Assembly (NCBI GenBank): GCA_029782135.1
Contig: JAKOVI010000162.1
Location: 1-64,000, forward strand
Source: Bacillota bacterium
Lineage (GTDB): Bacteria; Bacillota; UBA4882; UBA10575
Length of the DNA stretch: 64,000 nucleotides
Direction of reading: 5' to 3'
Shown: positions 12,902 through 23,826 of the stretch, piece after piece
Position numbering within the stretch: position 1 is the stretch's first letter
Layout of the letters: each line of letters begins with the position of its first letter
Translations under genes and position numbers: made by a program
The notes under the pieces: generated by a model
Databases searched by the model: none
Told to the model about the DNA's origin: nothing
What the model saw: the letters and a program-made list of their open reading frames with translations, nothing else

Positions 12902-13609
12902 TTATTTATCTTCCCCAGAAAAATCCTTAAACAGCTTTTTCAGCGCCTTTTTTTCAATACGCGAAACATAAGAACGGGAAATCCCCAGGATTTTAGCAAT
13001 TTCCCGTTGTGTCTTGCTCAGTCCGTCTTTCAGTCCGTAACGCAATTCAACCACTTTTTTCTCACGCTGGTTCAAAATATTTAACTTTTGCCGCAGACTC
13101 TCCTCCTCAAGTTTCGTCTCCACCATCTCCGGAACCAGTTCAGCCCCGGTATCCATAATGTCCAGAAGCGTAATCTCATTTCCCTCTTTATCGGAACCAA
13201 TCGGGTCCTGGAGAAAAACATCATTCTTCAATTTTTTCGTCGCGCGGAGATGCATCAAGATTTCATTTTCAATGCAGCGCGCGGCGTAGGTGGCCAACCG
13301 GGTATTGTATTTTCGTTTATATGTATTAATCCCCTTGATCAGACCAATTGTCCCGATTGATATCAAATCATCGTTATCCTCTCCCGTATTATCAAACTTT
13401 TTGACAATATGCGCGACCAACCGCAGGTTCCTTTCGATCAAAAGATCCCGCGCCTGCCGGTCTCCCGCCTCCATCCGGAGGATCAATTCCCGTTCCTCTT
13501 CTTCACTTAACGGCATGGGAAAGACATTGGTATTGGAAAACGAAGAAAAGAGCCAGGCAAACTTTTCACCGATCAGGTTAAAAAGGAACTCCAGCCAGGG
13601 AATGGCCAT
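12902..13609 (-). CDS. sigK: RNA polymerase sporulation sigma factor SigK
   Basis: This 235-residue sigma-70 family protein directs late mother-cell transcription. It has a hydrophobic pro-sequence ([17 protein letters not shown]) that keeps the factor at the membrane until cleavage. The body carries [20 protein letters not shown] and [14 protein letters not shown] in region 2, and a region 4 helix-turn-helix ending [15 protein letters not shown]. The gene is one unbroken frame, unlike Bacillus subtilis where a skin element splits it. The ATG at 13609 is preceded by GGGGGTG at 8 bases. The upstream region borders a tandem repeat. The pro-sequence would be cut by a SpoIVFB-type protease, which is not in this window. 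Confidence 0.95.
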
Positions 13610-13872
13610 CAAAGTTTCACCCCCGCAAGAAAATACGGCGTGCATCTATCCATATGAGTGAAACTATTGTCCTGTGCCAGTCCCGAACCGGCCAGATCCT
13701 GGATCAAAGTAACAAGGCCGAGGATAGGGTTTTCGTTTTTACCTGGGCATGCCTTAGAATGTTCGAAAGGAGCTTTCTGTAAGCAGGAGACAACCCGTAC
13801 CTTAGCCCGGGGGAGGGTTGGCGGAGAGCGAACTCGAAAGTCTTCGTAGAGCTTTCTTGGTGAACGAAGGAT

Positions 13873-13949
13873 AAAACCGGGACGCGCGGCAGGATGCCGC
13901 GCGCCGCTTCCGAGGCCAGGGATGGACTCTGAAGCGGTTGCCCGGTTTT
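13873..13949 (+). ncRNA. Candidate three-way-junction RNA with GGA loops, copy 1
   Basis: Plus-strand fold: outer stem AAACCGGG/CCCGGTTT closes two hairpins. The first is GCGCGGC-AGGAT-GCCGCGC. The second is CCGCTTC/GAAGCGG around an inner CC-AGGGAT-GG. A T run follows the outer stem, so the structure can also end transcription. The same architecture occurs in copy 2 and, with different stem sequences, on the minus strand at 23680-23756. Exposed GGA loops are the type of site bound by CsrA-family proteins and seen in TwoAYGGAY-like RNA motifs. Transcription has not been shown. Confidence 0.5.
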
Positions 13950-14082
13950 CCCCTGGGCAAGCCTTAGAATGTTCGAAAGGAGCTTCCTGTAAGCCGGAGA
14001 CAACCCATACCTTAGCCCGGGGGAGGGTTGGCGGAGAGCGAACTTGAAGCTCTTCGTAGAGCATTCTTGGCGAGCGAAGGGC

Positions 14083-14159
14083 GAAACCGGGACGCGCGGC
14101 AGGAAGCCGCGCGCCGCTTCCGAGGCCAGGGATGGACTCTGAAGCGGTTGCCCGGTTTT
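14083..14159 (+). ncRNA. Candidate three-way-junction RNA with GGA loops, copy 2
   Basis: Same fold as the copy at 13873: outer stem AAACCGGG/CCCGGTTT, first hairpin GCGCGGC-AGGAA-GCCGCGC and second hairpin CCGCTTC/GAAGCGG. The only change in the first hairpin (T to A) falls in the loop and leaves GGA and all pairs intact. Confidence 0.5.
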
Positions 14160-14241
14160 GGCCTGAGCGAGCCTTAGAGTGCTCGAAGGAGCTTCCTGGA
14201 AGCCGGAGCCAACCCTCCCCCGGGCGGAGAGATTATTCAGT

Positions 14242-15894
14242 TTAATCCAGTTCAGAGTTTAAATAGAGCTCCAGGCACCGCCTCATCATCTCCCCGAACA
14301 CCTCCGCCGCCCGCTCCACGGCGCGCACTTCCTCCTCCAGGAAAACCACGCCAACCAACCGCGGCTGGTAAGCAGGGGCATAACCGGCAAACCATCCGAA
14401 AGAAAGCTCCCGGCCTTCCGGATCGACTTTCCCACTGTCGGCGCTCCCCGCCAGCCCGGCAGCGCTCTCCCGGATTTGTGCCTTTTTTCCGGTTCCATAA
14501 AGAACAACCGCTTCTAATATTTCCTGGAGCGCTGATGCCGTTTCTCCGGAAAGAACCTGTTCACCACGGGGTGGCGGGGCTTGCCAAGCCCACTCCCCAT
14601 CAACCGTCAGTAATCCCTCCACCACCCGGAGCGGGTAGTAAATTCCATTTCCCGCAATCGCCTGAAGAACCCCGGCGATCTGCACCGGGGTGACCAGTAC
14701 TTCCTGTTCCCCCTGGAGGATTCCGGCATCATCTTTCAGTTCCGCCGGTGCCGGTAAATACCCGGCCGCCTCTCCGGGCAATCCTAAGCCGCTTACTCTG
14801 TCAAAGCCCAGCTTCTGCCCGACCGCGATGACTTTTTCCCACCCAACCCGCTTCAGCACTTCCGCACCGACCGGCCGGCAAGCGTAGGCGACAGCCTGGG
14901 CAAAAGTAAGCACCCCATGACTCTGCGCGTGGTCAGGAAAGCAATAATACGCCGTTGTTTCCGCCTCGATCAGCCCGGGATCATAAAAGGTTGTCCGGGC
15001 GGTCACCGCTCCCACCTCTAAAGCGGCGGCAGCCAGGGGAAGATTGAATAATGTCCCGGCGGGATAGGCTTGTAAAGCCCTGTTCAGTAAGGGAGCATGC
15101 GGTGCATTAATACTTTTTTGTGGCTCATAAGGGTCGAACACCGGCCGGCTGGCGAGTGCGAGAATCTTTCCTGTTCCTGCTTCCGTGAGCAAAAGAGCTC
15201 CCTTCGTTATCTCTTTCTCCGCAAGCAATTCTTCGATTGCTTGCTGGAGGGCAAGGTCGATGGTGAGCACTAGATTCTTTGGGGGTTTTTCTCCGTTAAT
15301 CTCCCGGTATTTCCATCCGATCCCGGGGATCGGCCGCTGGTGGGCATCGGCCGTCAGCGCCAAGTTCACAATCGTGTCGCTGCTTAAAGCCTCCTCGAAC
15401 AGGTATTCAAGACCGGCGATCCCTTGTCCTCCGGCCGGATGGAGATAACCAAGCAGATGATTGGCCAACGGTTTACCGGCATAACGTAAAGGAAGGTTAC
15501 AAAGGGTTAACCCTTGTAAATTATGCTGCTGCGCAAGGGCGAGAAGGTGCTGGTTAGGATTGCTGATGATCACCGGGGAAAGTTTTTGCCCGGAGAAAAG
15601 CTGATCTCCCAAAACCGCCATAATCTGCTGTTTTTCTTCTTCCGTTAGCCGTTCCGGGAAAACAGCCAGATATGTACGGTGGTCCTGTCCGGTTAGCGCA
15701 CGGCCAAAACGGTCGAGTATCGCCCCCCGTTGCCGGTACAATGGCAAGCTGTCACTCCGTTGGTTGATGGCCCGGAGTGCCCAACTGATATTCTCCTTTA
15801 CCTGAATCTGGAACAGACAATTAACCAAGTATAAGCCTAAACCAAAAAAGACATAGAAAAGAAGCATCACACGCCGGCGATATCCTTTACACAT
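14242..15894 (-). CDS. Degenerate class B penicillin-binding protein (predicted pseudo-transpeptidase)
   Basis: The 550-residue product has a membrane anchor at 10-30, a dimerisation-type region and a transpeptidase-like domain, so it belongs to the PBP2/FtsI/SpoVD fold. All three catalytic motifs are changed. The SxxK box, usually PGSTFK, reads PAGTLFN at 278-284 (Ser to Thr, Lys to Asn). The SxN box reads ACR at 338-340. The KTG box reads LAG at 481-483. The frame is otherwise intact and full length, so it is a maintained pseudoenzyme rather than a decayed gene. It follows mltG and may be a structural or regulatory partner in septal or cortex peptidoglycan synthesis. A hairpin covers its ribosome-binding site. 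The start at 15894 has AGGGGTGG 5 bases upstream. Confidence 0.85.
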   Translation of the reverse strand: MCKGYRRRVMLLFYVFFGLGLYLVNCLFQIQVKENISWALRAINQRSDSLPLYRQRGAILDRFGRALTGQDHRTYLAVFPERLTEEEKQQIMAVLGDQLFSGQKLSPVIISNPNQHLLALAQQHNLQGLTLCNLPLRYAGKPLANHLLGYLHPAGGQGIAGLEYLFEEALSSDTIVNLALTADAHQRPIPGIGWKYREINGEKPPKNLVLTIDLALQQAIEELLAEKEITKGALLLTEAGTGKILALASRPVFDPYEPQKSINAPHAPLLNRALQAYPAGTLFNLPLAAAALEVGAVTARTTFYDPGLIEAETTAYYCFPDHAQSHGVLTFAQAVAYACRPVGAEVLKRVGWEKVIAVGQKLGFDRVSGLGLPGEAAGYLPAPAELKDDAGILQGEQEVLVTPVQIAGVLQAIAGNGIYYPLRVVEGLLTVDGEWAWQAPPPRGEQVLSGETASALQEILEAVVLYGTGKKAQIRESAAGLAGSADSGKVDPEGRELSFGWFAGYAPAYQPRLVGVVFLEEEVRAVERAAEVFGEMMRRCLELYLNSELD

Positions 15895-15935
15895 AAAAAC
15901 CACCCCTGGTTAATTTAACCAAAAAAGGGTGGTTT
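15895..15935 (-). promoter_or_regulatory. Hairpin overlapping the ribosome-binding site of the degenerate PBP gene
   Basis: On the minus strand AAACCACCC pairs with GGGTGGTTT, with an inner GGTTAA/TTAACC stem, then TTTTT and the ATG. The right arm contains the AGGGGTGG ribosome-binding site. The structure could act as a terminator after mltG, as a block on translation, or both. Confidence 0.55.
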
Positions 15936-23610: not shown

Positions 23611-23826
23611 CTAGCAGGGCAGAATGGTATTTCCTTGTTCCGGTGAATTTCTTGGAGTATTCCAAAGCTCAGCTCCGTTAAAAAGCGGGCAACCGCTTTA
23701 TGGTTCCTCCTGAACCAAAAGCAGCGCGCGACGTCCATGTCGCACGACCCGCTTTCAATCTTCGCTTCGCGAGGATCTTTGCCAAGAAATTCAAGTCGAC
23801 GGTAAACACCATTCTACCCCGGCTAA
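23611..23826. repeat. 216-bp inverted-repeat element with an internal RNA-like fold
   Basis: Imperfect terminal inverted repeats of about 45 bases frame the element. The left arm has CAGGGCAGAATGGTATTTCC and the right arm, reversed, CCGGGGTAGAATGGTGTTTA; both continue to GAATTTCTTGG. The interior holds the three-way-junction fold on the minus strand. The AGAATGGT terminus recurs at 59683-59719, so this is a dispersed family. No transposase frame lies inside, which suggests a MITE- or REP-like non-autonomous element. The rest of the 465-base gap (23440-23610 and 23827-23904) shows no gene. Confidence 0.7.
23680..23756 (-). ncRNA. Candidate three-way-junction RNA with GGA loops, diverged copy
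   Basis: Minus-strand fold: outer stem AAAGCGGG/CCCGCTTT followed by T5. The first hairpin is TGCGAC-ATGGAC-GTCGCG, the second GCTTT/AAAGC around TGGTTC-AGGAG-GAACCA. The layout is the same as at 13873-13949, the stems differ by paired changes, and the linkers GCGCGC and AAGCGGTTGCCCG are shared. The loop ATGGAC fits the AYGGAY consensus. Confidence 0.5.

Follow-up and report, generated by a model that had tools for sequence, protein, structure and literature searches.

Between sigK and a gene for a penicillin-binding protein (PBP), a Bacillota bacterium carries a tandem repeat whose units can fold into a junction with two GGA-loop hairpins. An earlier note on this DNA took it for a local array of small-RNA genes, possibly a protein sponge. 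We asked what the array is and why its units fold. The window, that is, the whole stretch of DNA analysed here, is 64,000 nucleotides long. It is likely (probability about 0.8) that the array is a local duplicate of a mobile element, MITE-like, non-coding and non-autonomous, with a core from a branch of the TwoAYGGAY fold. The observations behind this reading are the dispersal of copies with empty sites in relatives, target duplications in other genomes, a fold kept by compensatory changes, a folding strand that carries GGA, and homology to the Rfam family RF01731.

The array at the sigK locus and the fold of one unit

Using Tandem Repeats Finder, we confirmed the 210-bp tandem repeat between the two genes: positions 13735-14215 have a period of 210, 2.3 copies and a 90% match. 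The array consists of two full units, W1 and W2, which are 92% identical to each other, and one half (Table 1). The PBP gene had been called degenerate. Its reading frame is full-length (553 aa), and what is missing from the translation are the catalytic motifs SxxK, SxN and KTG, which suggests a catalytically dead penicillin-binding protein. Other residues, for example GTLFN and GSADSG, replace the motifs.

Table 1. Positions of the array, its parts, its neighbours and the dispersed copy in the window
Feature	Position	Strand	Basis and details
sigK, flanking gene	12902..13645	-	NCBIfam NF004471, 347 bits; array upstream of the sigK start
3' half unit (truncated first repeat)	13735..13796	+	Tandem Repeats Finder and repeat finder; matches 13945-14006
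Full element copy W1	13805..14006	+	arms GGGTTGGC.../...ACAACCC; outer right end altered
Full element copy W2	14015..14225	+	perfect 18-bp terminal inverted repeat GCCCGGGGGAGGGTTGGC / GCCAACCCTCCCCCGGGC
W2 apical three-way junction	14084..14158	+	outer stem AAACCGGG/CCCGGTTT at 14084-14091/14151-14158; fold and covariation
W2 hairpin 1	14093..14113	+	loop CAGGAAG, GGA 14102-14104
W2 hairpin 2	14114..14147	+	loop CCAGGGATGG
PBP-like protein, flanking gene	14242..15903	-	Pfam PF00905, 128.6 bits; array after the PBP stop codon
Full dispersed copy, main subfamily	23617..23824	-	127 bits with model R1

The real unit turned out to be an imperfect palindrome of about 200-225 bp, in which the three-way junction sits on a long bulged stem. 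The plus strand of one unit folds with -110.9 kcal/mol (z = -5.1), and none of 200 shuffles was equally stable; for the minus strand the values are -94.7 kcal/mol and z = -3.3. In the plus-strand fold an outer stem encloses two GGA-loop hairpins, as had been described, and the long stem beneath this apical junction has symmetric internal loops. The T residues reported after the junction are present. They belong to the 3' arm of the stem and do not form a terminator U-run, and a consensus scan of the plus strand of the array gave neither a promoter nor a terminator. The diverged copy, placed by the note at 23680-23756, does keep the fold with paired changes; the whole copy is longer and lies on the minus strand (Table 1). 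Its loops are CATGGACG, which is of the AYGGAY type, and CAGGAGG.

Covariation, the folding strand and the phylum-wide family

We aligned 29 copies from the family of the window's genome (alignment A1). Changes on both sides were found in 22 of 47 pairs, compared to 10.9 ± 2.3 in shuffles. The first model, R1, used the RNAalifold structure of A1 and did not recover the three-way junction, for which the G.A pairs are the probable reason. It was replaced by R2, in which the structure with the junction was set by hand. Both models were made from own-family copies only and were searched in 399 genomes of the phylum. R1 matched 31 of them and R2 matched 45, including 37 outside the own family. With a covariance model of this kind, homologues are found in about 21 further families, often in multiple copies. 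In the window, R2 scores the cores of W1 (13851-13972, or L001 1617-1738) at 90.8 bits and of W2 (14061-14182, or L001 1827-1948) at 106.3 bits; R1 also matches W1. The remote scores rose steeply once the junction was in the model (from 62 to 100 bits for L144 and from 46 to 96 bits for L097), which supports the junction. A pattern scan of viral contigs gave no match.

Since fitting to the model biases the remote alignment (A3, 53 distinct rows) towards structure, the contrasts with shuffled and slid partners outweigh the percentage of paired positions. Compensatory changes were seen in 46 of the 47 model pairs. The covariation score was 0.713; it fell to 0.188 after shuffling, and slid partners reached no more than 0.106. 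The covariation in A1 and A3 bears out the proposed selection on a folded strand. It could be suggested that the paired changes come from template switching within palindromes and not from selection. Template-switch correction occurs in long imperfect palindromes, and the element is one. Such correction, however, would erase the internal loops, which are symmetric and made of purines, and it has no way to create coupled GA/GA steps. In the element, the loops and the C-G pairs that close them stay constant, and every stem varies. We consider this explanation hardly credible. Conservation by a protein-coding frame was rejected, since no frame is open in every one of the 29 copies and the best one is open in 16.

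Which strand folds can be judged from a two-pair step in hairpin 1 (columns 36-37/54-55 of A1). In A1 this step is GC/GC in 8 rows and tandem GA/GA in 14; in A3 it is GA/GA in 25 of 52 rows and GC/GC in 8 of 52. GA opposite GC occurs in no row of either alignment. W1 and W2 have Watson-Crick GC/GC at this step, and L053, the ortholog of W2, has GA/GA. Since GA/GA would become C.U mismatches if read on the complementary strand, it is the GGA strand that folds. Among the distinct rows of A3, GGA stands in loop 1 of 49/52 and in loop 2 of 51/52, and the extended motif CA(N)GGANG is found in 44/52 and 46/52, respectively. The loop-closing C-G pair is kept in 47/52 and 48/52, though the neighbouring pairs vary through all forms. 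The CA(N)GGANG loops resemble the RsmE/CsrA consensus reportedly described by Schubert in 2007. The GGA hairpin loops are of the CsrA type, as the note had assumed.

To describe orientation, we took the longest open reading frame on each side of a copy as the neighbour gene, so that single calls may be wrong. With the GGA strand as plus, the right-hand gene lies on the minus strand in 39/48 own-family copies and in 23/33 copies elsewhere. Since this gene mostly faces the element, readthrough mRNA mostly bears the UCC strand. It may be asked whether the functional RNA comes from the UCC-loop strand instead and, as a REP-like hairpin in the 3' UTR, protects the mRNA of the upstream gene or tunes it. 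Of the 81 scored copies, 62 have the right-hand gene pointing towards them, often with its stop codon near, and UCC is then in sense. However, the fold of this strand is the weaker one, and the coupled tandem G.A pairs turn into mismatches in it. The orientation may also have arisen because insertion favours it, or because copies that place the stronger fold in mRNA are selected against. Thus, a working UCC strand appears improbable.

Dispersal and mobility of the element

When a single full copy from another site of the genome (L003) was used as a DNA query, it gave 25 whole or partial matches in the window's genome and 20 in a genome of the same genus. Copies were found in 12 of 16 own-family genomes by DNA and in 14 of 16 by model. 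In this family, full-length copies additionally carry a leader and a tail of conserved sequence. Many other copies consist of the 5' or the 3' half alone, joined at the breakpoint to unrelated DNA, and some are truncated inside a hairpin.

Comparison of relatives shows where insertions occurred. One unit, the ortholog of W2, occupies the space between sigK and PBP in the same-genus genome. In two genomes of genus g2 (G011 and G013) only 20-52 bp lie between the sigK and PBP matches, and there is no element. The copy at 23.6 kb is absent from the same-genus genome. These single and empty sites indicate that the sigK and 23.6-kb loci both received insertions. For the array in the window, the simplest explanation is a later local duplication, 210 bp long, of one element. 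Thus, the idea of a local array of small-RNA genes is not supported: the units are dispersed and mobile, the array is secondary, most copies are antisense and no promoter was seen in the scan.

Direct marks of insertion come from other genomes. Halanaerobium sp. MA284_MarDTE_T2 carries about 45 near-identical copies of a unit with a constant length of 259 bp, bounded by 9-10 bp AT-rich target duplications. At L177:5735-5800, also in Halanaerobium, there is a palindromic mini-element of about 50 bp, whose ends resemble the ends of the 259-bp unit and which lacks the structured core. In genomes G058 (5 copies: L222, L223, L224, L225 and L113) and G274 (3 copies: L226, L227 and L112), the flanking hairpin is duplicated in 8/8 cases. 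The unit ends close to CAGACTGTAGACAAAC.../...GTTTGTCAACAAGCTG, and a copy-specific palindrome of 17-27 bp flanks it left and right, with hardly any variation in the spacing. The right-hand palindrome is usually followed by a T-rich run and is terminator-like. The two flanks of the same copy score 15-23 against each other, and the best of 56 cross-copy comparisons scores 11. It looks as if insertion in these two genomes duplicates a terminator hairpin. IS1630, which is of the IS30 type, targets and duplicates terminator inverted repeats, and its behaviour is similar to that in G058 and G274. In contrast to this likeness, no IS30 element carrying the ends of our element was found. Target duplications were looked for in own-family copies and were not found.

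Like a MITE, the element is short, has terminal inverted repeats (perfect over 18 bp in W2) and is non-coding, with no frame open across copies. The search of the draft genomes with Y1 and IS30 models revealed no autonomous partner with matching ends. An IS200/IS605 or REP/RAYT origin, hinted at by GTAG-like ends, was rejected, as the Y1 transposase was found in 0/6 own-family genomes. An IS30 partner was also rejected, because the IS30-family matches were fragments only and no matching ends were seen. In the literature, we found no papers on MITEs in Halanaerobium, on dispersed structured repeats in Clostridia or linking IS1630 with terminators.

Mobility leads to another explanation of the fold, in which it acts as single-stranded DNA: the GGA strand would fold while the element transposes or is replicated, the enzyme that mobilises the element would recognise it, and there would be no RNA function. 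The constraint tracks the mobile lineage and copies move, and sheared G.A pairs form in DNA too. In three pairs of orthologous copies, a small sample, 11 pair changes were kept, 12 were broken and 5 were G.A switches, so that broken and kept pairs are nearly balanced in resident copies. Unlike strong selection on each copy, these changes look close to decay, and they are too few to decide. On the other hand, the single-strand Y1 transposase is not found in the six family genomes, target duplications point to double-strand insertion, and the CsrA-type signature of the loops would be a coincidence. We regard a purely single-stranded DNA role as rather doubtful.

Under our main reading of a mobile TwoAYGGAY-branch element, its core would consist of a long stem, with G.A internal loops rich in purines, on top of which a three-way junction displays two C-A-(N)-GGA-N-G hairpins. 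A DNA transposase, predicted to act in trans, would move copies into intergenic sites, mostly by the 3' ends of genes. Possibly, the GGA strand is then transcribed, and the paired hairpins bind one dimer of the CsrA family, so that the element serves as a small CsrB/RsmX-like decoy; we put this step forward tentatively. Alternatively, the fold may serve transposition itself.

CsrA and comparison with known RNAs and repeats

The csrA gene is present in the window's genome. It was found in 40/45 element-bearing genomes and in 245/354 others (Fisher p = 0.005, phylogeny ignored); counted by genus, in 30/32 versus 165/235 (p 0.005, phylogeny ignored). In the drafts of genus g3 (G003, G008 and G010) csrA was not detected, and the other sampled family genomes have it. 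The copies in g3 mostly keep GGA in both loops. Like RNAs of the CsrB/RsmX type, the element has multiple CsrA-type GGA hairpins. From the loops and the distribution of csrA, binding of CsrA by the GGA-strand RNA is conceivable, though the odds are somewhat against it. The copies in g3, the mostly antisense orientation, the consensus scan of the window with no promoter and the changes in the few orthologous copies count against it.

These data also bear on whether each copy is a CsrB/RsmX-like small-RNA gene with its own promoter, which sequesters CsrA and was multiplied for dosage. The CsrA-type pattern in both hairpins, the csrA frequency in element-bearing genomes and the earlier proposal for TwoAYGGAY (PMC4333381) agree with this. 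However, the GGA strand in the window has no promoter or terminator by the consensus scan, and many copies are halved or cut within a hairpin. Besides, the copies are mainly antisense to the neighbour gene and persist in g3, and the orthologous copies, in a small sample, broke 12 pairs and kept 11. Thus, we believe that dedicated small-RNA genes are unlikely. The combined picture goes further than the mobile element: transposable elements would be spread across the phylum with a CsrA-target-mimic RNA as their sole conserved part, each transposition would add a decoy, TwoAYGGAY would be the visible part, and in at least two lineages insertion into terminators would duplicate the hairpin. As a whole, this is speculative and more probably wrong in some part. 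High-copy genomes, such as that of Halanaerobium sp. MA284_MarDTE_T2 with its approximately 45 copies, allow expression, CsrA binding and transposition to be measured directly.

Several known systems share features with the element. The repeats bcr1-bcr3 of the Bacillus cereus group are also small, dispersed and mobile (PMC6542083), and bcr1 was recovered as a conserved-structure family (PMC2267715). In contrast to the element, their insertion is TTTAT-associated and they are restricted to one species group (PMC6542083); the descriptions of bcr in these two papers contain no two-GGA junction. CsrB, RsmX and RsmZ present GGA hairpin loops fit for a CsrA dimer, as the element does. They are dedicated small-RNA genes with many sites, whereas the element, known from sequence alone, has two sites per mobile unit.

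The reverse complement of Bacillaceae-1 RNA (RF01690) has two CAGGA-loop hairpins in an order similar to that of the element. It matches element L095 (1537-1598, minus strand) with 24.1 bits and E 0.012, the cut-off being 35. Bacillaceae-1 differs in being shorter, and its model has no long basal stem. Its strand is given as uncertain in PMC4333381. TwoAYGGAY and Bacillaceae-1 may belong to a single superfamily, in which the Rfam entry for Bacillaceae-1 represents the opposite strand.

The closest relative is TwoAYGGAY (RF01731, clan CL00106, which also holds RsmW). Several remote members found with R2 pass its gathering score of 43 bits with full-length matches: L103, L214 and L113 score 55.8, 53.0 and 51.8 bits in RF01731 and 59, 52 and 38 bits in own-family R2. 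L215, L212, L208 and L144 score 29.5-39.6 bits, and the window copies, with 21.8 and 22.0 bits, are below the cut-off. Since remote members pass and the window copies fail, homology runs via intermediates, and the window's element is a sister branch and not a member. By these model searches, which support the TwoAYGGAY lead of the earlier note, the core belongs to a branch of the TwoAYGGAY fold that is homologous but has diverged. At L212:1360-1760 a TwoAYGGAY-type copy lies between repeats of about 100 bp built on ATATCTGGT/ACCAGATAT hairpins.

The element and TwoAYGGAY have in common the long stem, the three-way junction with two terminal GGA hairpins and the tandem G.A stem pairs, which are present in A1 and A3 and have the Watson-Crick form in W1 and W2. 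The loops differ, being usually AGGA or ANGGA in the element and not AYGGAY; in the window AYGGAY is matched by a single loop, AUGGAC (loop 1 of the copy at 23.6 kb), and the others are AGGAN or AGGGAU. In addition, the element's copies are dispersed mobile repeats. Weinberg et al. in 2010 (PMC2864571) described TwoAYGGAY as a probable RNA that is not cis-regulatory. In 2014, CsrA binding or sequestration was proposed for it, and tandem G.A pairs were noted in its stem (PMC4333381). The accounts of this RNA in the two papers, as far as their passages on it go, do not mention mobility. Thus, of the "undescribed system" suggested for this locus, the mobile character and this branch appear to be new, and the sponge idea had already been published. 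The link to a jumping element makes the proposed CsrA binding testable. The function of TwoAYGGAY has been unknown since 2010, and its mobile relatives shift the question from which small-RNA gene it is to why a transposon keeps a fold with two GGA hairpins.
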